Assembly (NCBI GenBank): GCA_900318205.1
Contig: ONJS01000003.1
Coordinates: 1 to 64,000 of the forward strand
Reading direction: 5' to 3'
Length of the DNA stretch: 64,000 bases
From: an uncultured Prevotellaceae bacterium
Lineage (GTDB): Bacteria; Bacteroidota; Bacteroidia; Bacteroidales; Muribaculaceae
Shown: piece after piece, positions 19,560-54,876 of the stretch
How positions within the stretch are numbered: position 1 is the stretch's first letter
How the letters are laid out: each line of letters begins with the position of its first letter
Program-made: the position numbers and the translations under genes
The notes under the pieces: model-generated
Told to the model about the DNA's origin: nothing
Seen by the model: only the letters and a program-made list of their open reading frames with translations
The model's database searches: none

Positions 19560-20012
19560 ATGGGAATTGAGATAGAACACAAGTATTTAGTGAAGGGCGA
19601 TGACTACAGGCTGATGGCCTGTGGAACCCATGAAATTAAACAGGGGTTCCTGTCAAGGGTGCCCGAACGTGTCGTACGCGTGAGAGTGCGTGACGACAAG
19701 GGATTTATCACCATCAAAGGGAAAGGCACGGCAGCGGCCCATCCCGAGTTTGAATATGAAGTGCCCCTGGAGGATGCCTTGCAGATGATGGAAATGTGTG
19801 AACCGCCCATTATTGAGAAAACCCGTTATATCGTCATGCATGAGGGTAACTGTTGGGAGGTGGATGAGTTCCACGGTGACCTTCAGGGACTTGTGATTGC
19901 CGAGTTGGAAGTGCCCAGCGAGGATTACCGATACCAGCTGCCGCCGTTCGTTGGCGAGGAAGTGACCGGTGACCCACGCTACTACAATGCTCAGTTGGGA
20001 GTGAGGAGTTAG
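19560..20012 (+). CDS. CYTH-domain protein (triphosphate tunnel metalloenzyme family)
   Basis: Product of 150 residues beginning MGIEIEHKYLV, which holds the family signature E-x-E-x-K. Alternating acidic and basic residues of the tunnel follow (RVRVRDDKGFITIKGKG, FEYEVPLEDA, IEKTRYIV, WEVDEFHGDLQGLVIAELEV). The family hydrolyses or cyclises triphosphates; small bacterial forms are mostly inorganic triphosphatases, and the natural substrate is open. The ATG at 19560 is preferred over a TTG nine bases earlier because the E-x-E-x-K motif normally begins within a few residues of the start. The last six sense codons and the TAG stop lie within an array of 7-bp repeats. Confidence 0.88.
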   Translation: MGIEIEHKYLVKGDDYRLMACGTHEIKQGFLSRVPERVVRVRVRDDKGFITIKGKGTAAAHPEFEYEVPLEDALQMMEMCEPPIIEKTRYIVMHEGNCWEVDEFHGDLQGLVIAELEVPSEDYRYQLPPFVGEEVTGDPRYYNAQLGVRS

Positions 20013-20034
20013 AAGTGAGGAGTTAGGAGTGTTG
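19993..20034 (+). repeat. Heptamer array (AGTKRGR type) across the CYTH gene stop codon
   Basis: Six in-phase 7-bp units: AGTTGGG, AGTGAGG, AGTTAGA, AGTGAGG, AGTTAGG, AGTGTTG. The first units encode the C-terminal residues of the CYTH protein and the third supplies its TAG stop. Confidence 0.85.
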
Positions 20035-20142
20035 GGGCTTGCCTTGGGGTGAGCGGCACAGATGGACCTTGAAGGGAAGGTGATATTATGAGTCATCTTG
20101 TAAAAAACTTAATGGCATAGCGGCTTAGCGAGAGTTTTTTTG

Positions 20143-20150
20143 TACTTTTG
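20143..20150 (+). promoter_or_regulatory. Bacteroidetes -7 box for the LptF/G permease gene
   Basis: TACTTTTG fits TAnnTTTG and implies a 27-base leader before the ATG at 20181. An upstream in-frame start at 20148 overlaps the box and is therefore rejected. Confidence 0.6.
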
Positions 20151-20180
20151 CAGCCGTTATTTTCCTTAATACGGCTAGTC

Positions 20181-22115
20181 ATGAAGATAAAGAGGCTATA
20201 TACATTCATGTTATCAAGATTCTTGCCACGATTCTTGATGACTTTTTGTATCTGTCTGTTTATCGTTATCATGCAGTTCCTGTGGCGTTACATCGACGAA
20301 TTGGTGGGCAAGGGACTGAGCATCGACCTCATTGCCGAACTGTTCTTCCATGCCGCCCTGTCACTGCTGCCGTTGGCTTTGCCCTTGAGTATCCTGCTGG
20401 CGGCGCTGATGACCTTTGGCGACCTGGGTGAACACGTGGAACTGACGGCCCTCAAGTCGTCGGGCATCTCGTTGACGACCATCATGAAGCCTATCGCAAT
20501 CCTGATGGTTTTTGTCGCTATAGGTGCCTTTTTCTTCATGAACAACGCCCTGCCAAAGTCCCAGGTCAAGATGTGGACCCTACTGTTTTCGATGCGCCAG
20601 ACCTCCCCCACCCTCGACATCCCCGAGGGTGCAGTATATAGCCAGATTCCCGGCTATAACATCTATGTCAAGCGCAAGGACAAAGAGCGCGACATGCTTT
20701 ACAATATGCTCATTTATGACGTTTCCAACGGCATGATGTATCCCCGCATCGTCGCTGCCGACTCGGGCCGCCTGAGCATGACCGAGGACAAGCAGCACCT
20801 GGTGCTCACGCTCTACAAGGGATCGTGGTATGAGGAAATGAAGGGCGGAGGCGGTGTGAGTGGTATGAGTGGCGAACTGTACCGTCGCGAGTCGTTCCAT
20901 GACAAGGAAATCCTCATCCCCTATGATGCCAACTTCACCCGCATGGATGACGAGACGATGAAATCGCAGTATGTGGGTAAGGATATCTCCGAATTGCGCC
21001 AAACCATCGATTCGGTGAGGCTGAAAGTCGATTCAGCGGCAACGCTCATCGTGTCAAAGCTGCGCACCCAGCCCGTCTGTGGCGTTCCCACCCAACGTGT
21101 CATCTACAAGGATGGAAAGCCCAGCTATGAGAAAGTAAAAGAGGTGAAAATGGACAAGCCTGTTGACATCAACAAGATGATCAAGGAGTTGCCCGTCAAC
21201 GATCAACAGCAGATTGTCAATCAAGCGTTGATGCGCACGACCAATATCATGCAGGACCTCCAGTTCCAAGGCTATACCGTCAACGACGACAATTTCATCA
21301 TCCGTCGTCATCAGATAGAGCTGATGAAAAAATTCACCCTCTCGCTGGCTTGCCTCATCTTCTTCTTTATCGGAGCGCCATTGGGAGCCATTATACGCAA
21401 GGGTGGACTGGGTATGCCTATCGTCGTGTCGGTAATCCTGTTCATTATTTACTACATCATCGACAACATGGGGTATAAACTGGCGCGTGACGGCCGCTGG
21501 GAAGTGTGGCAAGGCATGTGGCTCAGTTCGGCAGTATTGCTACCATTAGGCATTTTCCTGACCAAGAAAGCCGTCAACGACTCGGCAGTGTTCAATCCCG
21601 ATGCCTGGCTCAACTTCCTGCGCCGCTTCACCGGTCTGCACCAGACGCGCAAACTCGAGGCCAAAGAAGTCATCATCAACGAGGTGGTCGCCGAGGAAGC
21701 CGTTTCCCAAATTGCCGCCCTCAAGGATTCCTGTCAGCAATTCCTCGACAAATATCCCGGTCGCCAGCGATATATCGACTATTGGCAACAGGGTTATGAC
21801 AAAGCAACCATCAAGGCTTTGTCCGAACAAGTCGATCATGTTGTGGATTACCTCTCCAATTCCCGTGACCAGATGGTTCTCAACAAGGCGATGGATTATC
21901 CCGTCATCCGCCAGCTGCTCACCTATTGCCCCGTAGGCAACAAGACAGTGGGAACGGTATTCGCTGCCCTATTCCCCATTGGCCTGCCTGTATGGCTCAT
22001 TGGATTAAGACACCAGAAGAACCTGAAGCGTGATGTGAACCTCACCATCAAGACCTGTGACCAATTGGTTGCCATCATCAACGGCGAGTATAACCGCGAG
22101 ATGGAGTACAATTAA
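20181..22115 (+). CDS. LptF/LptG-family permease (YjgP/YjgQ)
   Basis: Product of 644 residues beginning MKIKRLYTFMLSRFLPRFL. The N-terminal helices carry the family pattern (FLWRYIDELVGKGLS, ALPLSILLAALMTFGDLGEH, ELTALKSSGISL). A large periplasmic beta-jellyroll runs over about 130-300 and three further helices close the family core (KFTLSLACLIFFFIGAPLGAIIRKGGLGMP). LptF and LptG form the inner membrane part of the LPS export machine with the ATPase LptB. The form here is longer than proteobacterial versions because of a C-terminal extension of about 200 residues with one more hydrophobic segment (FAALFPIGLPVWLIGL). Confidence 0.92.
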   Translation: MKIKRLYTFMLSRFLPRFLMTFCICLFIVIMQFLWRYIDELVGKGLSIDLIAELFFHAALSLLPLALPLSILLAALMTFGDLGEHVELTALKSSGISLTTIMKPIAILMVFVAIGAFFFMNNALPKSQVKMWTLLFSMRQTSPTLDIPEGAVYSQIPGYNIYVKRKDKERDMLYNMLIYDVSNGMMYPRIVAADSGRLSMTEDKQHLVLTLYKGSWYEEMKGGGGVSGMSGELYRRESFHDKEILIPYDANFTRMDDETMKSQYVGKDISELRQTIDSVRLKVDSAATLIVSKLRTQPVCGVPTQRVIYKDGKPSYEKVKEVKMDKPVDINKMIKELPVNDQQQIVNQALMRTTNIMQDLQFQGYTVNDDNFIIRRHQIELMKKFTLSLACLIFFFIGAPLGAIIRKGGLGMPIVVSVILFIIYYIIDNMGYKLARDGRWEVWQGMWLSSAVLLPLGIFLTKKAVNDSAVFNPDAWLNFLRRFTGLHQTRKLEAKEVIINEVVAEEAVSQIAALKDSCQQFLDKYPGRQRYIDYWQQGYDKATIKALSEQVDHVVDYLSNSRDQMVLNKAMDYPVIRQLLTYCPVGNKTVGTVFAALFPIGLPVWLIGLRHQKNLKRDVNLTIKTCDQLVAIINGEYNREMEYN

Positions 22116-22121
22116 TTAAAA

Positions 22122-22146
22122 GGTTAAAGGTTAGGGGTTAGAGGGG
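22122..22146 (+). repeat. Short heptamer array (GGTTARR) upstream of ribBA
   Basis: Three units GGTTAAA, GGTTAGG, GGTTAGA, then GGGG. It directly follows the LptF/G stop codon and precedes a small GC hairpin (CCGC, 6-nt loop, GCGG). Confidence 0.65.
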
Positions 22147-22194
22147 AGCCGCGTACTTGCGGAAAAAACTGAAAAAATCAAAAACTATATATAA

Positions 22195-23409
22195 ATGGAA
22201 GAAATCAAACTGAATACCATTGACGAAGCCGTGGAGCAGTTGCGACGCGGCGAATTTGTTATCGTGGTTGACGATGAAGACCGCGAGAACGAAGGCGATT
22301 TTATCATCGCCGCCGAAAAGATTACCGAAGAGAAAGTCAACTTCATGCTGCGTGAGGGACGCGGTGTACTTTGTGCGCCGATTACTGCCGAGCGTTGCCA
22401 TGAGTTGGAACTGAATATGCAAGTCGATGACAACACCTCGATGCTGGGCACTCCATTCACGGTAACCATCGACCTGCTTGACGGTTGCACCACCGGCGTG
22501 TCGATGCACGACCGAGCCATGACCATCCGTGCCCTTGCCAATCCCAACAGTAAGCCGCAGGACTTTGGTCGTCCCGGACACATCAACCCCTTGAGAGCCG
22601 TCGATAAAGGCGTGCTCAAGCGTGCCGGACACACCGAGGCTTCTATCGACCTGATGCGCATTGCCGGGCTCTACCCTGCCGCAGCCCTGATTGAGATCAT
22701 CAATCCCGACGGAACGATGGCCCGCCTGCCGCAGCTGATGAAAGTGGCTGAGAAATTCAATATGCCTATCATCACCATCAAGGACCTGATTGCCTACCGC
22801 CTGCGCACCGAGAAGGTCGTTGAAGTCGGTGACGAAGTGGACCTGCCCACCCAATATGGCCACTTCAAGCTCATCCCCTTTCGCCAGATCAATAACGGGC
22901 GTGAGCACATTGCCCTCATCAAGGGTGAATGGGGTCCCAATGAGCCGTTGCTGGTGCGCGTGCACTCGTCATGTGCTACGGGCGACATCTTCGGGTCGAT
23001 GCGATGCGAGTGTGGCGAGCAACTCCACATGGCGATGCAGATGATCGAGAAAGAAGGCAAGGGCGTGCTTGTCTATATGAATCAGGAAGGTCGCGGCATC
23101 GGATTGATGAACAAGATCAAAGCCTATAAACTGCAAGAGAACGGCTATGACACCGTTGACGCCAACGTACATCTGGGCTTCAAGCCCGATGAGCGAGACT
23201 ACGGTGTGGGTGCCAATATCCTGCGCATCCTGGGTGTGACCAAAATGCGCCTGATGACCAACAATCCCGTCAAGCGCGTCGGTCTTGAGAGTTACGGCCT
23301 TGAGGTGGTAGAGAATGTGCCTCTTGAAGTGACCCCGAACCGCTACAACGAGTTCTACATGCACACCAAGAAGACCCGCATGGGCCATGACCTCCACAAG
23401 GTTGACTGA
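22195..23409 (+). CDS. ribBA: Bifunctional 3,4-dihydroxy-2-butanone 4-phosphate synthase / GTP cyclohydrolase II
   Basis: Fusion of 404 residues. RibB is the N-terminal half, with the acidic metal loop [12 protein letters not shown] near 24-36 and the [14 protein letters not shown] motif. RibA is the C-terminal half, with the zinc cysteines in [19 protein letters not shown] and the RGIGL motif. Together they commit ribulose 5-phosphate and GTP to riboflavin synthesis. The upstream 79 bases do not contain the conserved FMN riboswitch core, so FMN control of this kind is unlikely here. Confidence 0.97.
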
Positions 23410-23411
23410 CT

Positions 23412-23453
23412 TGTTAGAAGTGAGGAGTGAGGAGTTAGAAGTTAGGAGTTATT
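23412..23453 (+). repeat. Heptamer array (AGTKAGR) between ribBA and the HD hydrolase
   Basis: Six in-phase units TGTTAGA, AGTGAGG, AGTGAGG, AGTTAGA, AGTTAGG, AGTTATT fill nearly the whole gap. The same heptamer set is seen after the CYTH and TsaC-family genes. Confidence 0.85.
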
Positions 23454-23462
23454 CTATTCAGC

Positions 23463-24092
23463 ATGAGGGATTTTAATGAGATAATGCAATTTGTGGAACG
23501 TGAGATCGTGCCTCGCTATGACAGTTTTGACGCCGGGCACAATCGCGACCATGTCCACACGGTCATTTCCCAGGCAATGACTCTGTCGCAGTATTATCCC
23601 GAGGTGGATCGCTGCCTGTTGCTGGTAGCGGCTGCCTATCATGACCTGGGACTCATCAACGGGCGGGAACATCACCACACCGACAGCGCCCGTATCATTC
23701 GCGAGGACACTCGTCTGCGCCAGTGGTTCAGCGAAGACGAAATCAACACGATTGCCGATGCCGCCGAGGATCATCGTGCCTCGAGCAATCACGAGCCCCG
23801 CACAATCTATGGCCGCATCGTCGCCGAGGCGGACCGCATTATTGACACCAACACCATCGTGCGCCGCGCCTTGCAATATGGCATGAAGCACCAGCCAGGT
23901 CTAGACCGTGAGGCTCAGTACAATCGCCTGATGGACCACATGCGAGAGAAATATGACTATGGCGGTTACCTCAAACTGTGGATTCCACAGAGCGACAATG
24001 CCAAGCGATTGGAAGAATTCCGCAAGACATTAGCCGATGAAACGGCCTTCAGACGTCTATTTGATACTATTTATGACCAATTAACCTCATAA
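23463..24092 (+). CDS. HD-domain phosphohydrolase
   Basis: Product of 209 residues with the HD-superfamily metal site: a histidine in HNRDHVHTV near 26-34, the HD pair in AAAYHDLGL (His60-Asp61), the HH-T-D-SA segment (HHHTDSARI), and a late aspartate in AEADRIIDTN. The family cleaves phosphate esters of nucleotides or related compounds; the substrate cannot be told. It follows ribBA across a 53-base gap filled with heptamers, so it may be in the same transcript, and a dephosphorylation role in flavin metabolism would be speculation. Confidence 0.85.
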   Translation: MRDFNEIMQFVEREIVPRYDSFDAGHNRDHVHTVISQAMTLSQYYPEVDRCLLLVAAAYHDLGLINGREHHHTDSARIIREDTRLRQWFSEDEINTIADAAEDHRASSNHEPRTIYGRIVAEADRIIDTNTIVRRALQYGMKHQPGLDREAQYNRLMDHMREKYDYGGYLKLWIPQSDNAKRLEEFRKTLADETAFRRLFDTIYDQLTS

Positions 24093-24107
24093 AACCATAA
24101 TAAGAAA

Positions 24108-25919
24108 ATGAAAAAGACGACTACACTATTATTGGCCCTGATGCTGGGCATGACAGCGTGGGCCGACATTCCCAACGGTTATTACACCAATGCCGTCGGC
24201 AAACAGGATGAGTCGTTGATGACCGCACTCGAAGGCATCATCTACACTCATGACTTATTATCTTACAACTACATGTGGAAAGCCTTCAACTTCACCGACA
24301 TGGGTGACGACGGTTACTACATCGACATGTACTCCACCTGTAAGTATGACTACTATTCCACTCATGTGGGCAATGCAACCTATGTGGGACAAGGACTTAA
24401 CCGTGAGCACTCGTTCCCCAAGAGTTGGTTTGGCGGCGAGGTTGATCCCATGTTTACCGACCTGACTATGCTCATCCCCACCGATGCCTATGTGAACCAG
24501 CGCCGCAGCAACAACCCTTACGGTGTTTGTGTCGGTGGATACACTTATGTAAACGACTCCTTGGGAGTAAGCATGAAGGGCAGGCTTGGCAAAAGCACCT
24601 ACAACGGTTACACATCGACCGTATTTGAACCCGACGATGAATACAAGGGTGACTTTGCACGCATCTATTTCTATATGGTGACTTGCTACAAGAGCGACGT
24701 GGCCAATTGGCCAGGCTGCGACCAGCTTGACTATGCTAAAAACAAATACAAGGCATTCTCAGACTGGTCGATACAGCTGCTCATGGAGTGGCACCGTGCC
24801 GACCCCGTCAGCACAAAGGAAATCAGCCGCAATGATTCAGTCTATAGCCGTCAAGGCAACCGCAACCCCTTTGTTGATCACCCCGTACTTGCCGAGCACA
24901 TCTGGGGCACAAAGCAGCATGTTGCATGGACAGGTGAAGATATCCCGGTTGACCCCTTTGAGAAAGAAGTGCCCATTATGCTCTCGGTTGACGAGACAGC
25001 CGTGCAGCAAGCAGCCTTCCGCGCCGACTGGACCGCAGTGGACAACATTTCGAGCTATACCCTCAAGGTAAATCGCATTGCAGCGCCAGGTGAAGAGATT
25101 GCCACCCTGCTCATGACAGAAAATTTCTCAAATGTTGTGGCCAACGAAGATGGCACCTATGACATCGGCACCAACTTAGACAATTACTCCGATAACCTCG
25201 GATGGAGCGGATACAAAGTCTTTACTGCTGCCAACAATAGCGTGAAAGTGGGAACCGGCTCAGTGGCAGGTTATCTTACCAGTCCCGAACTGGAACTCGA
25301 TAGCACCGTCACTGTGGTGGTCAATGCCAAGAGCTGGGTCAACGGCAAGGGAGTTAGTGACGGCAGTTCGGTGATTGTCTCTTGTGGCGACGTCAGCGAG
25401 ACGGTTGAACTGAGCACAGAGCCTACCGACTATACCGTTGTTCTCAAGGGCTGCGAAGCCGATAACGTCAAGTTTGCCATGACAGCTCCAGCCAAGCGTT
25501 TCTACATTTCCCACGTGGATATCTATAACGGTGATCTCACTGCCGTAGCACCTCGTCGTGCTATTGTTGAGGAGGGAGATTCCACTTGGCGCCAGGTGAG
25601 CGGCATTGTTGACACCTGCTACACGGTTCAGTCTCTGGCTGGCGGTATCTATGAGTACTTTGTCAAAGCGGTTTATACCGACGGCACCGAGAGCGTCTGG
25701 TCCAACATCCAGCATGTGACGCTCACCGGCAATGGCGATGAACCGCTCGTTGGCGATGTCAATGGTGACGGCGAGGTTAGCATCGGTGATGTTACTGCTC
25801 TCATCAGCTACCTGCTTGACAACAGCATGTCAATGGAGGGCAATCCCGATGTCGATAACGATGGAGAAGCCGATATCAACGATGTCTCAGCCCTGATTGA
25901 TCTCCTGTTAAAGCATTAA
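24108..25919 (+). CDS. Secreted endonuclease I-family nuclease with dockerin-like C-terminus
   Basis: Product of 603 residues with a signal peptide (MKKTTTLLLALMLGMTAWA). The endonuclease I domain (EndA/NucM family) covers about 20-285: LNREHSFPKSWFGG with the general-base histidine, then DLTMLIPTDAYVNQRRSNNP. The middle, about 295-540, is beta-sandwich-like. The end holds a pair of dockerin-like calcium loops (GDVNGDGEVSIGDVTALI, then DVDNDGEADINDVSALI). Likely an extracellular or surface nuclease that scavenges DNA or RNA. In non-cellulosomal Bacteroidales such dockerin-like tails are common and their partner is unknown. Confidence 0.9.
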   Translation: MKKTTTLLLALMLGMTAWADIPNGYYTNAVGKQDESLMTALEGIIYTHDLLSYNYMWKAFNFTDMGDDGYYIDMYSTCKYDYYSTHVGNATYVGQGLNREHSFPKSWFGGEVDPMFTDLTMLIPTDAYVNQRRSNNPYGVCVGGYTYVNDSLGVSMKGRLGKSTYNGYTSTVFEPDDEYKGDFARIYFYMVTCYKSDVANWPGCDQLDYAKNKYKAFSDWSIQLLMEWHRADPVSTKEISRNDSVYSRQGNRNPFVDHPVLAEHIWGTKQHVAWTGEDIPVDPFEKEVPIMLSVDETAVQQAAFRADWTAVDNISSYTLKVNRIAAPGEEIATLLMTENFSNVVANEDGTYDIGTNLDNYSDNLGWSGYKVFTAANNSVKVGTGSVAGYLTSPELELDSTVTVVVNAKSWVNGKGVSDGSSVIVSCGDVSETVELSTEPTDYTVVLKGCEADNVKFAMTAPAKRFYISHVDIYNGDLTAVAPRRAIVEEGDSTWRQVSGIVDTCYTVQSLAGGIYEYFVKAVYTDGTESVWSNIQHVTLTGNGDEPLVGDVNGDGEVSIGDVTALISYLLDNSMSMEGNPDVDNDGEADINDVSALIDLLLKH

Positions 25920-28492: not shown

Positions 28493-28541
28493 AACAATAC
28501 TTTAACTTTTCCCCCGCAAACTACATAGTGCGGCTCCCTCA

Positions 28542-28569
28542 CTAATCACTAATCTCTAATCACTAATCA
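28542..28569 (-). repeat. Heptamer array (CTAATCW) downstream of prfA
   Basis: Four in-phase units CTAATCA, CTAATCT, CTAATCA, CTAATCA, lying 18 bases beyond the prfA stop codon. A CCGC...GCGG pair precedes the array, as at other array sites. Confidence 0.8.
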
Positions 28570-28587: not shown

Positions 28588-29697
28588 CTACAACTCTGCT
28601 TCCTTGAGTTTCTCGGCGTTCTCGGCAACAATGAGGTGGTCGATGCAATCCTGGATGTCACCGTCCATAAAGGCGGGCAGGTTGTAGATCGTGTAGCCGA
28701 TGCGGTGGTCGGTAATACGGCCTTGTGGATAGTTGTAGGTACGGATCTTGGCAGAGCGGTCACCAGTCGAGACGAGGGTCTTGCGACGCGAAGCAATGTC
28801 GTCCATATACTTCTGGTGCTCGTGGTCATAGATGAAGGTACGCAGGCGAGCCAATGCCCTTTCCTTGTTCTTGGGCTGATCGCGGGTTTCGGTACACTCG
28901 ATGAGGATTTCCTGCTGCTCTCCTGTGTTGGGATTGGTCCACATGTAACGCAGACGCACACCACTGTTCACCTTGTTCACGTTCTGGCCACCGGCACCGC
29001 CACTGCGGAAGGTATCCCACTTGATTTCGCCTTCATTGATATGAACGTCAAACGGCTCGGCCTCAGGCAGTACAGCCACGCTGGCAGCAGATGTATGTAC
29101 CCTACCCTGGGTCTCGGTCACAGGCACGCGCTGGACGCGGTGCACGCCCGACTCATACTTCAATGTGCCATAGACGTTATCGCCCGTGATACTGAATACC
29201 ACTTCCTTGAAACCGCCCACAGCACCCTCACTGCAACTGGACATCTGCACGTTCCAGCCCTTGGTCTCACAGTAGCGGGTGTACATACGCGCCAAGTCTC
29301 CGGCAAACAGTGCTGCCTCGTCACCGCCCGTTCCTCCACGTATCTCGAGCACCACATTCTTGCTGTCTTCAGGATCCTCGGGGATGAGAAGGAGCTTGAT
29401 TTCCTCTTCCATCTTAGGTACCTCGGCAAGATTGGCGTCAATTTCCTCTCGCGCCATCGAGCGCAACTCCTCGTCGCTCTCGGTCTCCAGAACCAACTTG
29501 GCCTGTTCAATATCCTCCAGCATTTTGCGATAACGATGGGTTGCATTGAGCAAGGTTTCCAGGCTCTTGTATTCCTTGGTCAGCTTGACATAGCGACGCT
29601 GGTCAGCAATGACGTTGGGGTCAGTAATCAGGGTACCGATCTCTTCAAAGCGGGCATCCAGGCCGTCAAGACGTTGTAATAATGCGTTTTCTGCCAT
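28588..29697 (-). CDS. prfA: Peptide chain release factor 1
   Basis: Product of 369 residues with the catalytic GGQ motif in RSGGAGGQNVNK near 228-239 and the RF1-type stop-codon recognition region (HRVQRVPVTETQGRVHTS). It releases peptides at UAA and UAG. The ATG at 29697 is chosen because it follows the -7 box and begins the usual MAENALLQRLDGL. Glutamine in GGQ is normally methylated by PrmC, not seen here. RF1 reads UAG, the stop supplied by several of the heptamer arrays in this window. Confidence 0.97.
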   Translation of the reverse strand: MAENALLQRLDGLDARFEEIGTLITDPNVIADQRRYVKLTKEYKSLETLLNATHRYRKMLEDIEQAKLVLETESDEELRSMAREEIDANLAEVPKMEEEIKLLLIPEDPEDSKNVVLEIRGGTGGDEAALFAGDLARMYTRYCETKGWNVQMSSCSEGAVGGFKEVVFSITGDNVYGTLKYESGVHRVQRVPVTETQGRVHTSAASVAVLPEAEPFDVHINEGEIKWDTFRSGGAGGQNVNKVNSGVRLRYMWTNPNTGEQQEILIECTETRDQPKNKERALARLRTFIYDHEHQKYMDDIASRRKTLVSTGDRSAKIRTYNYPQGRITDHRIGYTIYNLPAFMDGDIQDCIDHLIVAENAEKLKEAEL

Positions 29698-29726: not shown

Positions 29727-29735
29727 GTAAAAAAG

Positions 29736-29770
29736 CCTTTAGCTTTTAGCTATCAGGCTTTAGTTTTTAG
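29736..29770 (-). repeat. Heptamer array (CTAAARN) across the metallophosphoesterase stop codon
   Basis: On the forward strand the in-phase units are CCTTTAG, CTTTTAG, CTATCAG, GCTTTAG, TTTTTAG. On the reverse strand they give CTAAARN words; one of them supplies the TAA stop of the gene whose 3' end is at 29760. Confidence 0.75.
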
Positions 29771-31142
29771 TTTTCTTTCTTTCAGGGTGGCTTTTGACGT
29801 ATTCCTGAATGCGTTTGGCAAACTTCAAATCCTTTTTATTGTTCGGGTCGGGAGTGAATTCCATGTATTCTGGGATGTCCTTACCCAGGTCGCGCACCAA
29901 ATGCACTTTATTTGGCGACACGAGAACCATTAGCGAGTCATAGAGCGCATGGGTATTGGCATCATAGGTCGCCATCGACAAGGTGTCGCCACTGACATTT
30001 ACCGTCTGGTAATAGCGGCTGGATATGCCGAATTTGTCAAAACTCTCATCAAATCGTATGCGGTAATTCTTTGGAGAGCAGTGGCTGATCGTGTAAACAG
30101 GTATCGCCGGAGCATCATTCTTGTAAACACCGCCAATTCGCCGTGCATAGGCATGTTCGTGACCCTGCATCACCAAGTCAACACCATATTGACGGACGAG
30201 GTCATCAAACATCCAGCGTTGAATCAGGTTGTTGTTTTTCTTCTTGATGGAATAGAGCGGATGATGAAGGACAAGAATCTTCCATTTGGCCTCGCTGTTC
30301 TTCAATTTCTCTTCCAGCCACTTGCGCTGTGTCCACAGATGGAAAAACTCACGGTTGCTGTCAAGCACAAAAATCTGGGCATCGCCATAATTCAAGGTAT
30401 AGACCATATTGTCGCCGTCCTTTGAATCCAGAAAATAGGAAAACACGAGCGGGAAGCGGCGTTCCAGACGACGGATAATGCCCTTGAAATAGTCGTGGTT
30501 GCCCGTTACGTTGAGCACTGGCATTGATTGGCCGATGCTGTCAAGATCACGGAAAGTCTCGTCCCAATACTGATTTGCTGGACGCTCGATCAAGTCACCG
30601 CCGCACACGAGGAACTCGACCTCGGGATGTTGTGCCCAAGCCTCCATCAGCAACTTGTTGGCTATGCCACCGATGGTGTCCTGCACATCGCCCACAAAGA
30701 GGAACGAGAACTTGTCACGCCCCGTGGCATAGGTTTTGAATGAATACCACTGCGAAGCCTGTTCTCCACTCATCACACGGTAGCGGTAATGGGAATCAGG
30801 TTGCAGCTGACGAAGGCGAGCAACGTAGTAAGCCGCCTTGCCCTTGCGGGACTCAAACACCTCACCCACGGCATCAATACAGGTAGTGTCATCCGTTTCA
30901 AGGCAGACCAACTCCAGCCGTGAAGGCTGCAACATGGTGTCGCACTGCCAGCTCACGTTACGAGACATCTCATTGTCGTCACCGAAAGTCAGCAACACAT
31001 GCCCTGGAGTTTCCAGCGGCTTGACTGCCAATTCCTCAGGATTACTGAACCACACCTGCCATCTTGTTGCAACCCATACTGCCAGAGCAAGCATGAGTAA
31101 CAACAGGACTATTCGCTTGATATTTTTAGACCTTGTTTTCAT
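29760..31142 (-). CDS. Membrane-anchored metallophosphoesterase (purple acid phosphatase-like)
   Basis: Product of 460 residues. An N-terminal helix (IVLLLLMLALAVWVATRW) anchors it and a fibronectin-III-like domain spans roughly 40-140. A calcineurin-type phosphoesterase core follows: FVGDVQD, GGDLIERP, TGNHDYF, LHHPLYS and MQGHEHAYAR supply the metal ligands D, D, N-H, H and H-x-H. Probably faces the periplasm; the substrate is unknown. The ATG at 31142 is just after the -7 box (31152-31159) and starts with MKTRSKNIKR, a typical basic pre-membrane stretch. The last codons lie in a heptamer array. Confidence 0.87.
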   Translation of the reverse strand: MKTRSKNIKRIVLLLLMLALAVWVATRWQVWFSNPEELAVKPLETPGHVLLTFGDDNEMSRNVSWQCDTMLQPSRLELVCLETDDTTCIDAVGEVFESRKGKAAYYVARLRQLQPDSHYRYRVMSGEQASQWYSFKTYATGRDKFSFLFVGDVQDTIGGIANKLLMEAWAQHPEVEFLVCGGDLIERPANQYWDETFRDLDSIGQSMPVLNVTGNHDYFKGIIRRLERRFPLVFSYFLDSKDGDNMVYTLNYGDAQIFVLDSNREFFHLWTQRKWLEEKLKNSEAKWKILVLHHPLYSIKKKNNNLIQRWMFDDLVRQYGVDLVMQGHEHAYARRIGGVYKNDAPAIPVYTISHCSPKNYRIRFDESFDKFGISSRYYQTVNVSGDTLSMATYDANTHALYDSLMVLVSPNKVHLVRDLGKDIPEYMEFTPDPNNKKDLKFAKRIQEYVKSHPERKKTKN

Positions 31143-42178: not shown

Positions 42179-42784
42179 ATGGAAATTTTAGAAATCATTG
42201 AAAAGAATGTCAACCAGCGCCACATCGACCATATCGTCGAGACGCTCAAGGACGGTGGTCTCATCATCTACCCCACCGATACCGTCTATGCACTGGGTTG
42301 TGACGCGCTCAACAACCAAGCCATTGAGCGCATCTGCTCGATCAAGGAAATGAAATCGGCCAAGACCAACCTGTCCATTATCTGTGATGATATCTCACAG
42401 GTGGCTCAGTACGCCAAATTTGACAATACACAGTTCCGACTGATGAAGTCCAACCTGCCGGGACCGTTTACCTTCATCTTCCCTGCCCTTTCCAAGTTGC
42501 CCAAAGCCTTTAAGGGCCGTCGCACGGTGGGCATCCGTATTCCCGATAACGAAATCGCCTTGTCCATCGTTCGCACGCTGGGAGGTCCTATCCTGACCAC
42601 CTCGGTGCCTGGCGATGACGAGGACTATCGTTGCGAGCCCGGACTGATGGCCGAAGCCTTTGAGTCACAGGTTGATATCGTCATTGACGCTGGTCGTGGT
42701 CAGCTCATGCCATCCACCATCGTGGATTGCACCGGTAGCGATCCCGAAATCACCCGTCAAGGCAAGGGAGAACTGATAAGTTAG
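42179..42784 (+). CDS. L-threonylcarbamoyladenylate synthase family protein (TsaC/Sua5/YciO)
   Basis: Product of 201 residues of the YrdC fold, with the N-terminal KDGGLIIYPTDTVYALGCDA, the lysine/arginine pocket residues in SIKEMKSAKTNLSIIC, the LPGPFTFIFPA segment and GRRTVGIRIPDNEIALSIV. It should make threonylcarbamoyl-AMP for the t6A modification of tRNAs reading ANN codons. The related YciO branch, of unclear function, is a second choice. It is tightly linked to the B3/B4 gene, giving two tRNA-associated folds in one operon. The TAG stop (42782-42784) lies in the first unit of a heptamer array. Confidence 0.86.
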   Translation: MEILEIIEKNVNQRHIDHIVETLKDGGLIIYPTDTVYALGCDALNNQAIERICSIKEMKSAKTNLSIICDDISQVAQYAKFDNTQFRLMKSNLPGPFTFIFPALSKLPKAFKGRRTVGIRIPDNEIALSIVRTLGGPILTTSVPGDDEDYRCEPGLMAEAFESQVDIVIDAGRGQLMPSTIVDCTGSDPEITRQGKGELIS

Positions 42785-42820
42785 GAGTTAGAAGTTAGAA
42801 GTTAGGAGTTAGAAGTTGAT
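42779..42820 (+). repeat. Heptamer array (AGTTAGR) across the TsaC-family stop codon
   Basis: Six in-phase units AGTTAGG, AGTTAGA, AGTTAGA, AGTTAGG, AGTTAGA, AGTTGAT. The first one supplies the TAG stop. A GC core (CATCCGC) follows, as in other arrays. Confidence 0.9.
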
Positions 42821-45971: not shown

Positions 45972-46034
45972 CAGTTATCGGTTGACAGCGACTTCCGCAT
46001 CCAACTGAAAACTGAGAACTAAAAACTGAAAACC
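45972..46034 (+). repeat. Inverted heptamer array before lpxA
   Basis: The left part carries CAGTTAT-CGGTTGA-type words, the middle a GC core (TTCCGCATCC), and the right part AACTGAA, AACTGAG, AACTAAA, AACTGAA in phase. The two parts are roughly complementary, so the RNA can fold into a hairpin ending just before the lpxA start. Confidence 0.75.
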
Positions 46035-49855: not shown

Positions 49856-49902
49856 GTCAATGTTTTCAGTAGATTGCTACATTATATAAAATATATTTTT
49901 TG

Positions 49903-49910
49903 TAATTTTG
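49903..49910 (+). promoter_or_regulatory. Bacteroidetes -7 box for the methylmalonyl-CoA decarboxylase operon
   Basis: TAATTTTG (TAnnTTTG) about 60 bases before the ATG of the epimerase gene. The leader is AT-rich. No convincing -33 box at the usual distance. Confidence 0.55.
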
Positions 49911-49969
49911 TGCGATATTTTGAAAATTCACTTAATTTAATTAAATAATCGTCTAAAAAACAGAAAGTT

Positions 49970-50389: not shown

Positions 50390-50400
50390 ATGAATAGTCT

Positions 50401-50475
50401 CAGTTCTCGGTTGTCAGTTTCCTGCGGCATCAGCCAGCAATAATCTGACAACTGAGAACTGTAAAACTGAAAACT
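50401..50475 (+). repeat. Inverted heptamer array before mmdA, hairpin with 17-bp stem
   Basis: CAGTTCTCGGTTGTCAG (50401-50417) pairs with CTGACAACTGAGAACTG (50445-50461) with one wobble. The 27-nt loop contains the GC core CTGCGGCATC. AACTGNN words continue to 50475, ending 11 bases before the start codon. Confidence 0.85.
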
Positions 50476-50485
50476 TATTATAAAA

Positions 50486-52099
50486 ATGGGAAAACAACTT
50501 GATAAGATTCAAGAGCTGATCGAGCGTCGCGAGAAGGCACGCCTGGGTGGTGGCGAGAAGGCTATTGCCAAGCAGCACGAGAAGGGCAAATTCACTGCCC
50601 GTGAGCGCATCAATATGCTCCTTGACGAGGGCAGCTTTGAGGAACTGGACATGTTTGTTCAGCACCGCTGCACCAACTTCGGCATGGAGAAGAAGACCTA
50701 TGACGGCGACGGCGTGGTAACCGGTTTCGGTACCGTCGGCGGTCGTCTCGTTTACGTCTTTGCTCAGGACGCTACCGTTATCGGTGGCTCTCTGGGTGAG
50801 ACCATGGCACTGAAGATGTGTAAGGTGATGGACCTCGCCATGAAGCAGGGTGCTCCTGTTGTCGGCCTTAACGACTCGGGCGGTGCCCGCATCCAGGAGA
50901 GCGTTAACGCTCTGGCTGGCTATGCCGAGATTTTCCAGCGCAACATCAACGCATCGGGTGTCATTCCTCAGATCAGTGCCATCCTTGGCCCCTGTGCCGG
51001 TGGTGCCGTTTACTCCCCTGCCCTGACCGACTTCATCATCATGGCCAAGGGTATCTCCTTCATGTTCCTGACCGGTCCCAAGGTCGTTAAGACCGTGACT
51101 GGTGAGAACGTGACCCAGGAGCAGCTGGGTGGTGCAAGTGTTCATGCCAGCAAGAGTGGTGTGGCTCACTTTGCCGCCGAGACCGAGGAAGAGGCTATTG
51201 CCATCATTCGCCAGCTGTTGAGCTACATGCCCAGCAACAATATGGAAGAGACTCCCCGCGTGGAGTGCACCGATCCCATCGACCGCGTGGAGGATGCCCT
51301 GAACAACATCATTCCCGAGAGCGCCAATGATCCCTACGACATGTATCAGGTGATCAGCGCCATCGTCGATAACGGTGAGTTCCTCGAGGTTCACAAGGAC
51401 TTCGCCAAGAACATCATTGTCGGCTTTGCCCGCTTCAATGGCCAGGCTGTCGGCGTAGTTGCCAACCAGCCCAACTGCATGGCAGGTGTACTCGACGTGA
51501 ACGCATCGAAGAAGGGCGGCCGCTTCGTCCGCTTCTGCGACGCCTTCAACATTCCTCTGGTAACCCTCGTTGACGTGCCCGGCTTCCTGCCCGGTACCGG
51601 ACAAGAGTACAATGCCGTGATCATGAACGGCGCCAAGTTGCTGTACGCCTATGGCGAGGCTACCGTGCCCAAGGTAACCGTTACCCTGCGCAAGAGCTAC
51701 GGTGGTTCACACATCGTGATGAGCTGCAAGCAGCTGCGCGGTGACTTGAACTACGCATGGCCCAGTGCCGAAATCGCCGTTATGGGTGCTGCCGGTGCTG
51801 CCGAGATCCTCTATGCCAAGGATAGCAAGAACTTCAAGACCCAGGCCGAGGAGGCTAAGGCTGCCGGTGACGAAGCCAAGGCTAAGGAATTGCTCGAGCA
51901 GGGCAAGAAGTTCATCCAGGAGAAGGAGGACGAGTACAACAACCTCTTCTGCACGCCTTACAATGCAGCCCGTTATGGCTACATCGATGACGTGATTGAG
52001 CCGAGGAACACCCGCTTCCGCGTGATCCGCGCTCTGGAGGTACTGCGTACCAAGAAATTGACCAATCCTATCAAGAAGCACGGTAATATCCCCTTGTAA
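50486..52099 (+). CDS. mmdA: Methylmalonyl/propionyl-CoA carboxyltransferase (decarboxylase alpha) subunit
   Basis: Product of 537 residues in the acyl-CoA carboxylase beta family, with two crotonase-like halves. The first holds GGSLGETMALKMCKVMDLAM, LNDSGGARIQES and ILGPCAGGAVYSPALTDF; the second holds PLVTLVDVPGFLPGTGQE, RKSYGGSHIVMS and WPSAEIAVMGAAGAAEI. With the biotin protein and the beta subunit it removes the carboxyl group of (S)-methylmalonyl-CoA to make propionyl-CoA. The neighbourhood favours the decarboxylase over a biotin-dependent carboxylase. Confidence 0.94.
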   Translation: MGKQLDKIQELIERREKARLGGGEKAIAKQHEKGKFTARERINMLLDEGSFEELDMFVQHRCTNFGMEKKTYDGDGVVTGFGTVGGRLVYVFAQDATVIGGSLGETMALKMCKVMDLAMKQGAPVVGLNDSGGARIQESVNALAGYAEIFQRNINASGVIPQISAILGPCAGGAVYSPALTDFIIMAKGISFMFLTGPKVVKTVTGENVTQEQLGGASVHASKSGVAHFAAETEEEAIAIIRQLLSYMPSNNMEETPRVECTDPIDRVEDALNNIIPESANDPYDMYQVISAIVDNGEFLEVHKDFAKNIIVGFARFNGQAVGVVANQPNCMAGVLDVNASKKGGRFVRFCDAFNIPLVTLVDVPGFLPGTGQEYNAVIMNGAKLLYAYGEATVPKVTVTLRKSYGGSHIVMSCKQLRGDLNYAWPSAEIAVMGAAGAAEILYAKDSKNFKTQAEEAKAAGDEAKAKELLEQGKKFIQEKEDEYNNLFCTPYNAARYGYIDDVIEPRNTRFRVIRALEVLRTKKLTNPIKKHGNIPL

Positions 52100-52101
52100 T
52101 C

Positions 52102-53106
52102 ATGAGTAAAAGAACATTGATACTCGTTCTGCTGTGCGCCATCCTCGCACTGCCCACGTTGGCCCAAGGCCGTAAAAACGTGCGCATCAATGAGGTGATG
52201 GTGCAGCAGGACAGCACGGGCGGCAACGGCTGGGTCGAGTTCTATAACTCGTCCTACAGCTCTACTGCCGTCGAGCAGATGTTCATCACGACCCTGAGCC
52301 GTGAGGAAATCCAAAGCGTCTTTGACAAGAATAAGGGCAACAAGAAGAAACCCAAACAGATTCTTGTCGAGCTTTGTGAGGCCCAGCCTATGGACATCTA
52401 CGAGATTCCCCGTGGTGACGAGCGCCACACCAAGATTGCTCCTCGCACCCACTTTGTGATGGAAGCCGATGGTGACCCCAAGTCGGGTACATTCCACATG
52501 CCGTTTGTCTTCACGCTGGGCAAGGACAATTATATCGCCCTGTATGACGTCAACGGAGACCTGGTTGATGACGTGACGGTTCCCGCCACGCTGAAACCTG
52601 GTGAAACCTATGCTATCAAAGCCGAAGGACGCCTTCCGAGCATTCTTGATGACGGACAGACCGAATGGACTGTCAAGGATGGTAAGGCTATCGAGACTGC
52701 AATCACCAAGGGTAACTACAACGTACGCGAGGTGAACGAGAACATCGAGGCCTTCCATGTCAAGGATCCCCATGGCTTCTGGATTGCCATACTCGCCATG
52801 TCGGTAGTATTCAGCGCTCTGGCACTGCTCTACATCTGCTTCAAGTTGTTCGGTAAATTTGCCAGTAGGAATCTGCAGTCCGAGGAGAAGACGCAGGCTG
52901 CTGCTCTCGAAGCTGCTAAGGCTGCTGCCGTTCCCGCCACCGGCGACCTCGATGGCGAGAAGATGGCTGCTATCTGCTTCGCGTTGTATCAGCATCTGAA
53001 TGCCCACGACAACGAGAGCGGCGTTTTGACACTCGCTCCGCGTGACAATTCGACATGGGCCAACAAGGCTGGCCTGATGCGTGAAATACCCGTTATCAAG
53101 AAATAA
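52102..53106 (+). CDS. OadG-like gamma subunit with N-terminal lamin-tail domain
   Basis: Product of 334 residues. A signal sequence (KRTLILVLLCAILALPTLA) precedes a lamin-tail-type domain (VRINEVMVQQDSTGGNGWVE, FYNSSYSSTAVEQMFITT) over about 27-185. A single membrane helix follows near 230-252 (FWIAILAMSVVFSALALLYI) and a cytoplasmic tail rich in alanine. The helix plus tail is the OadG pattern of sodium-pumping decarboxylases, in which gamma holds the complex together. The lamin-tail part would lie in the periplasm. It starts two bases after the mmdA stop codon. Confidence 0.85.
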   Translation: MSKRTLILVLLCAILALPTLAQGRKNVRINEVMVQQDSTGGNGWVEFYNSSYSSTAVEQMFITTLSREEIQSVFDKNKGNKKKPKQILVELCEAQPMDIYEIPRGDERHTKIAPRTHFVMEADGDPKSGTFHMPFVFTLGKDNYIALYDVNGDLVDDVTVPATLKPGETYAIKAEGRLPSILDDGQTEWTVKDGKAIETAITKGNYNVREVNENIEAFHVKDPHGFWIAILAMSVVFSALALLYICFKLFGKFASRNLQSEEKTQAAALEAAKAAAVPATGDLDGEKMAAICFALYQHLNAHDNESGVLTLAPRDNSTWANKAGLMREIPVIKK

Positions 53107-53131
53107 TCACCATTAAAAATCATTCACTCAA

Positions 53132-53563
53132 ATGAAGGAATACAAATATAAGATCAATGGTAACGAGTATAATGTTGCCATCGATAACATTGAAGGCAAC
53201 ATTGCACACATCCAGTTGAACGGTGTGGCCTATGATGTTGAACTGCCCGAACAGCCCAAGGCTGCTCCCGCCGTGAAACGTGTTGCCGTGAGCGACGCTC
53301 CAGCGGCTGCTCCCAAACCCGCTGCCCGCAAGGCTGCTCCCGCTGCCGGCGGTCACGTGATCGAGTCTCCGCTTCCCGGCGTTATCAAGGACATCTTTGT
53401 AAAGGTTGGCCAGCAGGTTAAGGCCGACGACGTGGTTTGCATCCTCGAGGCCATGAAGATGGGCAACGAGATTCATGCTGGCGTTGACGGCACCGTCAAG
53501 AGCATCGAGGTATCGAAGGAGGATTCGGTACTCGAGGGTAACACAATCATGGTAATCGGATAA
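53132..53563 (+). CDS. Biotin carboxyl carrier subunit of methylmalonyl-CoA decarboxylase
   Basis: Product of 143 residues. A short N-terminal domain, an alanine/proline linker (about 43-72) and a biotinyl domain with the site EAMKM (lysine 109) are visible. The carboxyl group from MmdA is carried here to the membrane subunit. It lies between the OadG-like and beta subunit genes; a hairpin-forming heptamer array separates it from the latter. Confidence 0.94.
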   Translation: MKEYKYKINGNEYNVAIDNIEGNIAHIQLNGVAYDVELPEQPKAAPAVKRVAVSDAPAAAPKPAARKAAPAAGGHVIESPLPGVIKDIFVKVGQQVKADDVVCILEAMKMGNEIHAGVDGTVKSIEVSKEDSVLEGNTIMVIG

Positions 53564-53566
53564 ATC

Positions 53567-53642
53567 CAGTTGTCAGTTAACAGTTGACAGTTGTCGGCGG
53601 CATCCGCACACAACTGAAGACTGAAAACTGAGGATTGAAAAC
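53567..53642 (+). repeat. Inverted heptamer array before mmdB
   Basis: The left part has CAGTTGT, CAGTTAA, CAGTTGA, CAGTTGT in phase. The core GGCGGCATCCGC follows, then AACTGAA, GACTGAA, AACTGAG, GATTGAA on the right. The two sides can pair over about 28 bases with mismatches. Confidence 0.85.
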
Positions 53643-53651
53643 AAGAAAGCT

Positions 53652-54806
53652 ATGGTACTGCTTGACAATTTCCTGTTTACCAAGTTGTTGGATTTCTGGC
53701 ATTTCACCGGATTCTACAACTTTGATTGGACTAACCTGATCATGATTTTGGTGGGTTTGTTCTTCATCTATCTCGCCATCAAGCATGATTTTGAGCCCAT
53801 GCTGCTCGTGCCCATCGGATTCGGTATCCTGATTGGTAACATTCCCTTCCAGCCGGGCAACGAGATTGGCATCTATGAAGACGGATCGGTGCTTAACATC
53901 TTGTATCAAGGTGTTCGCAACGGATGGTATCCACCACTCATCTTCCTAGGCATCGGAGCGATGACCGACTTCAGCGCATTGTTGGCCAACCCCAAGCTGA
54001 TGCTTGTCGGTGCAGCAGCGCAGTTCGGTATCTTCGGAGCCTACATGATTGCCCTGGCTCTGGGCTTTATGCCTGACCAAGCCGGCGCTATCGCCATCAT
54101 CGGTGGTGCCGATGGTCCTACTGCCATCTTCCTGTCGTCCAAACTGGCACCTAACTTGATGGGAGCCATTGCCGTGAGTGCCTACAGTTATATGGCGCTC
54201 GTGCCTGTGATCCAGCCGCCCATCATGCGTCTGTTGACGACCGAAAAGGAGCGCAAGATGCGCATGAAACCCGCCCGCAAGGTGAGCCAGCTGGAGAAGA
54301 TTATCTTCCCCATCTTCGGTCTTATCCTCACTTGCTTCGTGGTGCCTTCGGCAATTCCCCTGCTGGGTATGCTGTTCTTCGGCAACCTGCTGCGTGAGAG
54401 CGGTGTGACCAAGCGTCTTGCCCACACGGCCAGCAACGCCATGACCGACATCGTGACCATTCTGCTGGGTATGACCGTGGGTGCTTCGACCCAGGCCTCG
54501 CAGTTCCTGACCAAGGAGACGATCTTCATCTTCTTCCTCGGTTTCTGCGCCTTCATCATCGCCACCTGCTCGGGTGTGCTGTTCGTGAAGATCTTCAACC
54601 TTATCTTGCCGAAGAGCAAGAAGTTGAACCCGCTGATCGGTAATGCTGGTGTATCAGCTGTTCCTATGGCTGCACGTATCAGCAACGATCAGGGTCTGAA
54701 GGCTGACCCCAGCAACTACCTGTTGATGCACGCCATGGGCCCCAACGTGGCTGGCGTGATCGGTTCGGCAGTTGCCGCTGGTGTCCTCCTGGGCTTCCTG
54801 GGATAA
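53652..54806 (+). CDS. mmdB: Sodium-translocating decarboxylase beta subunit
   Basis: Product of 384 residues with about nine to eleven membrane helices and the family signature IIGGADGPTAIFLSSKLAP near 150-168, which holds the aspartate needed for decarboxylation-driven sodium transport. Further conserved parts are NAGVSAVPMAARISN and HAMGPNVAGVIGSAVAAG. It decarboxylates carboxybiotin and exports sodium, storing energy from the succinate-propionate pathway. Last gene of the operon; the stop codon is followed by ten TAG-starting heptamers and a strong terminator. Confidence 0.95.
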   Translation: MVLLDNFLFTKLLDFWHFTGFYNFDWTNLIMILVGLFFIYLAIKHDFEPMLLVPIGFGILIGNIPFQPGNEIGIYEDGSVLNILYQGVRNGWYPPLIFLGIGAMTDFSALLANPKLMLVGAAAQFGIFGAYMIALALGFMPDQAGAIAIIGGADGPTAIFLSSKLAPNLMGAIAVSAYSYMALVPVIQPPIMRLLTTEKERKMRMKPARKVSQLEKIIFPIFGLILTCFVVPSAIPLLGMLFFGNLLRESGVTKRLAHTASNAMTDIVTILLGMTVGASTQASQFLTKETIFIFFLGFCAFIIATCSGVLFVKIFNLILPKSKKLNPLIGNAGVSAVPMAARISNDQGLKADPSNYLLMHAMGPNVAGVIGSAVAAGVLLGFLG

Positions 54807-54876
54807 TAGATGTTAGACTATAGACTTTAGTCTTTAGACTTTAGACTCTAGACATTAGATTTTAGACGTTAGATAG
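54807..54876 (+). repeat. Ten-unit TAGAYNN heptamer array directly after the mmdB stop
   Basis: TAGATGT, TAGACTA, TAGACTT, TAGTCTT, TAGACTT, TAGACTC, TAGACAT, TAGATTT, TAGACGT, TAGATAG in unbroken 7-bp phase. TAG recurs in all three reading frames. Confidence 0.95.

Follow-up and report, generated by a model that had tools for sequence, protein, structure and literature searches.

The DNA analyzed here, called the window below, is a 64,000-nucleotide (nt) stretch of contig ONJS01000003.1 (positions 1 to 64,000, forward strand) from the 3.62 Mb draft genome of an uncultured Prevotellaceae bacterium (GenBank assembly GCA_900318205.1; G000 in our numbering). At ten places in the window, gaps beside genes such as those for LptF/LptG, RibBA, Sua5/YrdC, LpxC, LpxA, a biotin carrier and a decarboxylase-beta protein (OAD beta) hold short arrays of tandem 7-bp units (heptamers), the subject of this analysis (Table 1). 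A first-pass annotation of the window had reported these arrays, giving them a constant period of 7, a heptamer specific to each locus and a GC core in several cases. Such a core does often lie near the arrays, as in the CCGC...GCGG stem of Table 1.

Period-7 repeats in the window were detected with Tandem Repeats Finder (TRF, minimum score 30) and with a period score of our own. TRF placed a period-7 row at, or no more than about 45 bp downstream of, all ten sites; at 45972 and 50401 what TRF reported was the right arm (46003 and 50445, respectively). Nine of the ten arrays reached a period score of at least 11 and seven a score of at least 12, the array at 50401 falling below because its right arm contains an indel. 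In 50 replicates of shuffled window gaps, an average of 0.12 arrays scored 10 or more. All ten arrays are present.

Genome-scale counts were made in a sample of 851,187 bp, consisting of 787 kb of stretches from the same genome plus the window. It comprises 629 intergenic regions, each taken with 15 bp of gene end per side; its genes were called by a purpose-written open reading frame caller in place of a standard annotator, and gene ends were trimmed by ~20 bp for the coding-DNA control. At a score of at least 14, the sample contains 66 intergenic period-7 segments versus none in dinucleotide-shuffled intergenic copies (mean of 3) and none in its coding DNA, which bears out both the period and a signal stronger than in shuffled intergenic DNA; lowering the score to 12 gives 78 arrays. 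Other periods from 4 to 15 gave 0 to 12 intergenic segments, except for the harmonic 14 (54), and period 9 was the second strongest (12 intergenic and 9 coding segments).

Nor are the arrays confined to the window. Across the whole genome, three successive units of GTTAGNN match 100 times and three of AACTGNN 112 times, both versus 0 for the reversed pattern; four of TTAGNNN match 341 times versus 21 reversed, and the TTAGNNN word spaced at period 8 has no match. The words recur from locus to locus: 64 of the 67 arrays in co-directional gaps are covered by eleven words, which make up about six complementary pairs (set as patterns by us and not derived by clustering), so that the idea of locus-specific heptamers does not hold. 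A search of the 64-kb window against Rfam returned no match at the gathering score.

Table 1. Period-7 arrays and associated features of the window, with positions counted from its first nucleotide.
Feature	Positions	Strand	Context and evidence
Left-type array AGTTAGR/AGTGAGR	19993..20031	+	Overlaps end of open reading frame stopping at 20012; TRF and sequence
Left-type array GGTTARR	22119..22144	+	LptF-RibBA gap, after LptF/LptG stop (22115); TRF, sequence and period score
CCGC...GCGG core stem	22149..22162	+	3' of GGTTARR array; seen in sequence
Left-type array GTTAGRA/GTGAGGA	23413..23451	+	Occupies most of RibBA-HD gap; 20 congeners compared
Left-type array, TTAGTGA on coding strand	28539..28569	-	Release-factor gene ends at 28588
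Weaker array, CTAAAAG on coding strand	29734..29774	-	Purple acid phosphatase/release-factor gap; TRF 73% matches, score 11.5
Left-type array AGTTAGR	42779..42817	+	Includes Sua5/YrdC stop codon (42782-42784)
Left arm CAGTTNN, two-armed element	45972..45990	+	LpxC-LpxA gap
Right arm AACTGAA	46003..46033	+	Precedes LpxA start (46039)
Left arm CAGTTNN	50401..50421	+	Glyoxalase-carboxyltransferase gap; gap folding z -7.7
Right arm AACTGNN with indel	50445..50475	+	Precedes start at 50486
Left arm CAGTTNN	53567..53593	+	Biotin carrier-OAD beta gap
Core GCGGCATCCGC, sense	53597..53607	+	Between arms of biotin carrier-OAD beta element
Right arm ACTGAAG/AACTGAA	53612..53642	+	Precedes start at 53652
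Left-type array TTAGACN	54813..54873	+	Downstream of OAD beta stop (54806)

Intergenic arrays of the palindromic hexamers TCTAGA and CTATAG, spaced at about 9 bp, occur in G000 at C31:233306-233400, C31:147379-147437, C31:267327-267397, C25:114742-114798, C25:137609-137695, C25:144640-144740 and C25:159204-159304. A recurrent palindrome, ACTACGAATTACACGAATT..., which seems to be 9-periodic, is present at C31:250268-250383 and in the LptF-RibBA gap of two relatives (L190 and L207), and is found in intercistronic gaps of several species.

Arms, orientation and operon setting

Among gaps of 30 to 400 bp, arrays of score 12 or more occur in 57 of 333 co-directional, 6 of 80 convergent and 1 of 72 divergent gaps. 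Read on the coding strand, the 67 arrays in co-directional gaps divide into 40 near a stop codon and 27 near a start codon. The near-stop arrays, mainly TTAGNNN, AGTTAGR/AGTGAGR, GTTTARR or CAGTTNN, begin anywhere from 16 nt upstream to 64 nt downstream of the last stop-codon base (34/40 at 10 nt or less), and the near-start arrays, mainly AACTGAM, CTAANNN or CCTAANN, finish at a distance of -1 to 46 nt from the start (20/27 within 10 nt). Overall, 81% of the 67 lie no more than 10 nt from a stop or start versus 63% under random placement (maximum of 2000, 79%), in agreement with the earlier statement that the arrays adjoin genes. The two kinds differ in their words: TTAG occurs twice or more in 33/40 near-stop versus 1/27 near-start arrays, CTAA in 3/40 versus 17/27 and AACTG in 3/40 versus 13/27. 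They also differ in composition, near-stop arms being C-poor (7%) and near-start arms A-rich (46%). Because 7 exceeds a multiple of 3 by one and TAA, TAG or TGA is found in most units, a few of them suffice to close all reading frames; all three are closed within the first 28 nt of 33 of the 40 near-stop and 24 of the 27 near-start arrays, as opposed to 10.1 and 6.1 after shuffling.

The elements at 45972, 50401 and 53567 are two-armed, and the CAGTTNN and AACTGNN arrays are therefore the two arms of one element. With a low array threshold, 15 gaps of the sample carry arrays at both ends. In these, the left-arm heptamer agrees more closely with the reverse complement of the right arm in its gap than with that of permuted arms (4.80 versus 4.28, p = 0.0009, 20,000 permutations), and a control in direct orientation gave z = 1.1. 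We tentatively assign the arrays to a superfamily of short, dispersed elements between cistrons, of which they are the arms. The first-pass description stands as far as the periodic arrays go, and missed their stop-to-start, two-arm and sense-oriented layout.

The word TANNTTTG, which we take to be a Bacteroidetes promoter word, is present in 4/51 array gaps versus 79/199 other co-directional gaps (p = 4.5e-6), and a run of six T (T6) in 2/51 versus 42/199. No T6 run occurs in the 14 CAGTT gaps under 115 nt among 21 loci. Window elements sit, for example, between LpxC and LpxA and between the biotin-carrier and decarboxylase-beta genes. Given this scarcity of promoters and T-runs, the elements probably lie mostly inside operons and are not terminators; to judge by sequence, array gaps look intra-operonic. 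The 51 co-directional array gaps have a mean folding z of -2.84, and among gaps without arrays the mean is -5.05 for convergent (57) and -0.83 for divergent (45) pairs. Over the 51 array gaps, folding is slightly better on the sense than on the antisense strand (28 versus 23, p = 0.03).

Turnover at orthologous gaps and dispersed copies

The gap between the biotin carrier and OAD beta genes was compared with that of 25 relatives at 95% protein identity or more. A heptad spacer of 81-121 nt is present in 16 of the 25, and the heptamers of these filled gaps fall into four classes when assigned by eye (CAGTT, 6; AGTTGTA, 5; TAGTCC, 4; TAGCNAT, 1). The comparison of orthologous gaps that the first-pass annotation had proposed thus shows arrays gained and lost among relatives. 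Across the four classes, each of the 16 filled gaps has a better fold than its shuffled versions, with z from -2.1 to -6.9. The stem begins 3-5 nt past the stop in 14/16, and in 12/16 an unpaired 3' leader of 15-22 nt is left outside it. The unpaired exterior of filled gaps has a median of 19 nt versus 16 nt in empty gaps. A stem that folds out and holds stop and start at the empty-gap distance would fit this observation, but the length is not diagnostic because shuffled sequences leave a similar one.

On a gene tree of 25 of the 26 same-genus loci plus the window (L029 left out), which is poorly resolved, the five states of this gap, labelled by eye, need 15 changes, and those of the glyoxalase-carboxyltransferase gap need 11. 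In 26 of 36 non-sister pairs of the same class the spacers are more alike than third codon positions (0.735), eight of them at 0.90-0.96, with alignment gaps omitted from the spacer similarity; the genes in this comparison are ~0.89 alike. Recent homologous transfer of gap alleles together with flanks found no support, as the nearest 100 bp upstream show no excess (0.927 in same-class pairs versus 0.925), and no clear recombination mosaic was seen in eight comparisons. A 14-nt unit duplication distinguishes L056 from L031.

Two further gaps were followed in 20 congeners. Between RibBA and HD the gap is 0-10 nt in six, holds heptads, judged by eye and mostly with different words, in nine, and holds other sequence in five; its length is nearly constant between the window (53 nt) and L188 (54 nt). 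The gap between HD and EndA is 4-32 nt in 19 of the 20 (15 nt in the window), and in L207 only it holds a 117-nt two-armed CAGTT cassette, a clean gain as read from the sequences. The window also encodes, at 24108-25919, an Endonuclease I domain protein with a dockerin type I domain at its C-terminus.

The CAGTT elements are a family scattered over the genome. About 16 further copies of the window cassette (53560-53655) occur in its own genome, each spanning at least 57 nt at 74-86% identity, and its best three paralogous copies (83-86%) are about as similar as the closest orthologous copy (0.84). The L207 cassette has 104 matches in the genome it comes from (G009) and 84 in G000, counts that include both orientations and arm-only matches; among the matches listed, the best further copies show 82-93% identity over 73-105 nt, and none is near-identical. 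In two species, many loci carry largely the same 80-nt stretch, core included. For the core GCGGCATCCGC, the genome holds 16 matches versus 3 for its reverse. Twenty CAGTT copies were fetched with their flanks and 18 had a core recognized by set patterns; all 18 lie in co-directional gaps with GCGGCATCCGC or a close variant on the coding strand, never the complement. For the core word GCATCCGC, co-directional gaps of the 851-kb sample, all families together, gave 13 sense and 5 antisense occurrences. In G000, three paralogous gaps lie behind large genes with the C-terminus NRVSICEIIVK (presumably TonB-receptor/SusD-like, judging by layout), one short, one CAGTT and one GTTTA, and the latter two have identical flanking words. 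One cassette, compared with plasmid and phage records by BLAST with the low-complexity filter on, had no match; four units of GTTAGNN occur in at least 120 stretches of public viral contigs.

The nearest named relatives come from metagenomes, mostly of rumen or gut origin, and carry the labels Muribaculaceae, Prevotellaceae, Porphyromonadaceae or Bacteroidales. Period 7 is dominant in the named loci taken from relatives, with 26 arrays in 491 kb of the genus, 32 in 620 kb of farther rumen genomes and 15 in 260 kb of Bacteroides-like genomes. Shuffled copies of the relatives' named loci contain no period-7 array; these loci are one locus across related genomes, and the sequences are therefore not independent. 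Three units of GTTAGNN are found in 24 of 61 relatives and, within the genus, in 21 of 37, with counts from 0 to 109. The arrays are common but variable in the genus and patchy elsewhere.

Ubiquity across the order was rejected, as 20 genomes of other Bacteroidales families, sampled at the start of contig 1 of each (some very short), contained only 1 array of score 13 or more in 315 kb. Seven genomes chosen for high pattern counts had only 9 arrays in 301 kb. Four units of TTAGNNN match in 104 of 295 genomes of the order, where the reversed GATTNNN is no neutral control because it is itself frequent in other genomes. Of 17 loci from other families, selected because they matched and with arms counted by eye, six have the two-arm plan (L168, L169, L170, L172, L173 and L180; L172 is convergent); the rest have one arm or different layouts, and L187 has no array at threshold. 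In the genome G355, which belongs to another family of the class, period-8 matches number 24, and two of the three loci taken from it are without an array at threshold. One locus of G355 (L183, C2:5300-8400) contains a period-8 two-armed hairpin, CTAAGNNN / CTTAGNNN, after a stop and between co-directional genes.

Possible roles and origins

The anatomy, periodicity and orientation of the elements, their promoter-poor and T-run-poor setting and their turnover are direct observations. We infer that translation is the target, that the elements spread by a copying mechanism and that they are of benefit rather than merely tolerated. The explanation we favor, and hold only tentatively, is that each element acts in the mRNA as a translational spacer and insulator and has spread by copying. 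Its first arm is a run of T/G-rich heptamers starting at the stop or within a few bases of it, and its second arm, where present, a run of A-rich heptamers finishing a few bases before the start; where both exist, they can pair as a hairpin that begins a few nt past the stop. Ribosomes that read through or re-initiate would be halted after the first gene, which would keep translation of the two genes separate and leave an A-rich leader for the second. The elements are gained and lost rapidly, and copying from other loci, together with 7-nt slippage, would give families common to a genome and to a related species.

A number of results weigh against this explanation. Nine of the 25 close relatives have only 12-23 nt and no element between biotin carrier and OAD beta, many elements are one-armed, and the antisense strand closes three frames too (26/40 near-stop and 13/27 near-start arrays). 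Ten of the 36 non-sister same-class pairs fall below third positions, down to 0.62. Compensatory changes are few (1, 0, 1, 1 and 4 in five within-class alignments, one of which pools two others). Where stop positions of the units have changed, a stop was kept in 38/45 cases near stop codons (null 37.8) and in 22/33 near start codons (null 18.8, highest 24), and these counts do not support selection that keeps stop codons in the units. Significant folding (z < -2) is limited to 26 of the 51 array gaps, and the 199 co-directional gaps without arrays have a mean z of -1.78, with 81/199 below -2. In a cruder duplex-energy test, own versus foreign arms gave only z -2.6 in 48 array gaps and a stronger z -8.3 in 184 gaps without arrays; since the array-less gaps pair more strongly, stop-to-start pairing is no privilege of array gaps. 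Among 18 CAGTT copies, the antisense fold is more stable than the sense fold in 17 (by 2.5 kcal on average), whereas selection on an mRNA stem would predict the opposite. The two strands do not differ in the 26 well-folding array gaps or in the 16 biotin carrier-OAD beta gaps, and well-folding gaps without arrays favor sense more (51/81, p = 0.005). Sense-strand stem optimization is thus unsupported, and the CAGTT family shows the opposite. Given the antisense folds, the few compensatory changes, the stops that are not clearly kept and the relatives without an element, our confidence in a role in mRNA is limited.

We rate nearly as high, and regard as quite possible, that the arrays are selfish or neutral dispersed repeats, which copy themselves by some form of transposition or conversion, survive only in intercistronic gaps as insertions elsewhere are harmful, and affect translation only incidentally; the two explanations are not mutually exclusive. 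The size of the dispersed CAGTT family in G000 and G009 (84 and 104 matches to the 117-nt cassette), the clean gain between HD and EndA in L207, the NRVSICEIIVK gaps (one short and two of different heptamer classes, these two with the same flanking words) and the window cassette's three best paralogues, which match its closest orthologue in similarity, all speak for such repeats. By themselves, however, they leave unexplained the sense orientation of 18/18 cores and the strand polarity of the arms. The 26 of 36 pairs whose spacers are better kept than third positions also count against them, as do the lack of a near-identical copy among the matches listed (best others 82-93%), the lack of a plasmid or phage match for the one cassette compared and the lack of a clear link to transposases (rho 0.32, p = 0.051). 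We consider it unlikely that replication slippage with quasi-palindrome correction made the elements, with 7-nt steps expanding the words, template switching copying the arms and the hairpins tolerated as by-products. The exact period of 7, the absence of arrays from coding DNA and the 14-nt duplication in L056 versus L031 would fit, and in most of the repeat-rich genomes surveyed, heptanucleotides outnumber every other kind of long simple repeat (Mrazek 2007, cited in PMC4679880); but independent slippage would not place largely the same 80-nt stretch, core included, at many loci of two species, and the nearly constant RibBA-HD length is a further point against it.

Two explanations concern the hairpin itself. 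In translational coupling by unfolding, which we think improbable, the hairpin would mask the initiation region of the second gene until a ribosome at the first stop opens it. The right arm does end near the start and the left arm does begin at the stop, but in 12 of the 16 folded orthologues the 15-22 nt leader lies unpaired outside the stem, and one-armed arrays could not work in this way. Least probable of all, and rejected here, are transcription terminators or attenuators: structure follows the stop in about half of array gaps, but a stem with a T-run is not what these gaps contain (T6 in 2/51 versus 42/199, and in none of 14 CAGTT gaps), promoters are few, and elements occur between biotin-carrier and decarboxylase-beta genes.

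Beyond the spacer and insulator explanation lies a more speculative one, to which we give little weight, that the elements are directional mobile intercistronic elements, hairpin cassettes copied only sense-wise into stop-to-start gaps and resetting operon translation ratios. An RNA or transcription-linked intermediate would then be possible, related species would swap gap cassettes at conserved gene pairs, and the constant 7-nt period, like the 8-nt version (L183, one two-armed example), would reflect the copying enzyme. If the favored explanation is right, much of the intra-operonic gap sequence in these rumen bacteria would consist of a few element families of one design, and gaps of the same gene pair, empty or filled by various cassettes, would be natural experiments. 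The role of 7-bp intergenic repeats would become directly testable by swapping gap alleles.

Comparison with known systems

Related heptamer repeats are known already, and the two-armed oriented architecture is, to judge by open-access searches, apparently undescribed: no description of it in Bacteroidales was found in the open-access literature, most subscription papers and preprints lying outside the scope of the search. Mycobacterial interspersed repetitive units are oriented intercistronic elements whose ends meet the stop and start codons of operon genes; we know of no heptad periodicity or two-arm design in them.

Like repetitive extragenic palindromic (REP) elements, the present elements are dispersed palindromic intergenic repeats in many copies. 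REP palindromes are GTAG- or CGTC-tagged (PMC3733652), whereas the elements here have periodic arms, several unrelated words sharing one layout and, in the CAGTT family, one orientation to genes. Mobilization by REP-associated tyrosine transposases (RAYT) found no clear support: counts of Y1_Tnp and array copy numbers gave rho 0.32 (p = 0.051, 37 genomes), and the flanks of the Y1 transposase gene examined (C31:369674-370123, one of three own Y1 matches) hold other, non-heptad palindromes. The region G000 C31:369312-370363 encodes a 149-residue Y1 transposase with REP-like palindromes, ACCCGTGGTAATGCTG... and GCCCGAAGGGC, unrelated to the heptads; an AGTGAGG/AGTTAGA array lies farther upstream in the gap of this gene.

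The likeness to Nostoc-type heptamers drawn in the first-pass annotation, whose interpretation is partly supported overall, is apt, as those too can form intergenic hairpins. Cyanobacterial short tandemly repeated repetitive (STRR) sequences are usually 7-bp, intergenic and hairpin-forming with function unknown, and have been suggested to stabilize transcripts or couple translation (PMC2670836). The arrays here are likewise tandem 7-bp units between genes (66 intergenic, none coding or shuffled); unlike STRR, their arms are both heptad-built, complementary, oriented with transcription, tied to stop and start, and set in promoter-poor gaps.

The same annotation knew of no counterpart in Bacteroidales, yet TAACTGA direct repeats are in print (MacGregor 2015, PMC4679880) for Beggiatoaceae, Cyanobacteria and five Bacteroidetes, of which Paludibacter propionicigenes has two sets. 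According to that paper, these repeats are intergenic, mostly just upstream of starts, with stops in three frames; related heptamers are rarely repeated in the main genome, no particular structure is predicted, and other heptamer repeats are mentioned for Gramella and Elizabethkingia (PMC4679880). The present arrays resemble them in a near-identical word (AACTGAA/AACTGAC), in the position of AACTG close upstream of the start (13/27 near-start arrays) and in closing three frames (24/27 near-start arrays). TAACTGA doublets in the 851-kb sample number 0 for TAACTGATAACTGA versus 14 for AACTGAAAACTGAA. Unlike the TAACTGA repeats, the present elements comprise about six word families, have near-stop arms as well and form a hairpin in some cases.

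In Escherichia coli, re-initiation is controlled by structure directly behind the stop codon, and ribosome termination structures (RTS), stable mRNA structures immediately 3' of the stop where the gap exceeds 25 nt, are proposed re-initiation insulators (PMC7518266); translational coupling fades at gaps of ~20-38 nt (PMC10666635). Structure after the stop is predicted in all 16 filled biotin carrier-OAD beta gaps but in only 26 of the 51 array gaps. RTS, as described in PMC7518266, share no motif and are scarce downstream of operon genes other than the last, whereas the elements described here are dispersed periodic repeats that occupy promoter-poor gaps.

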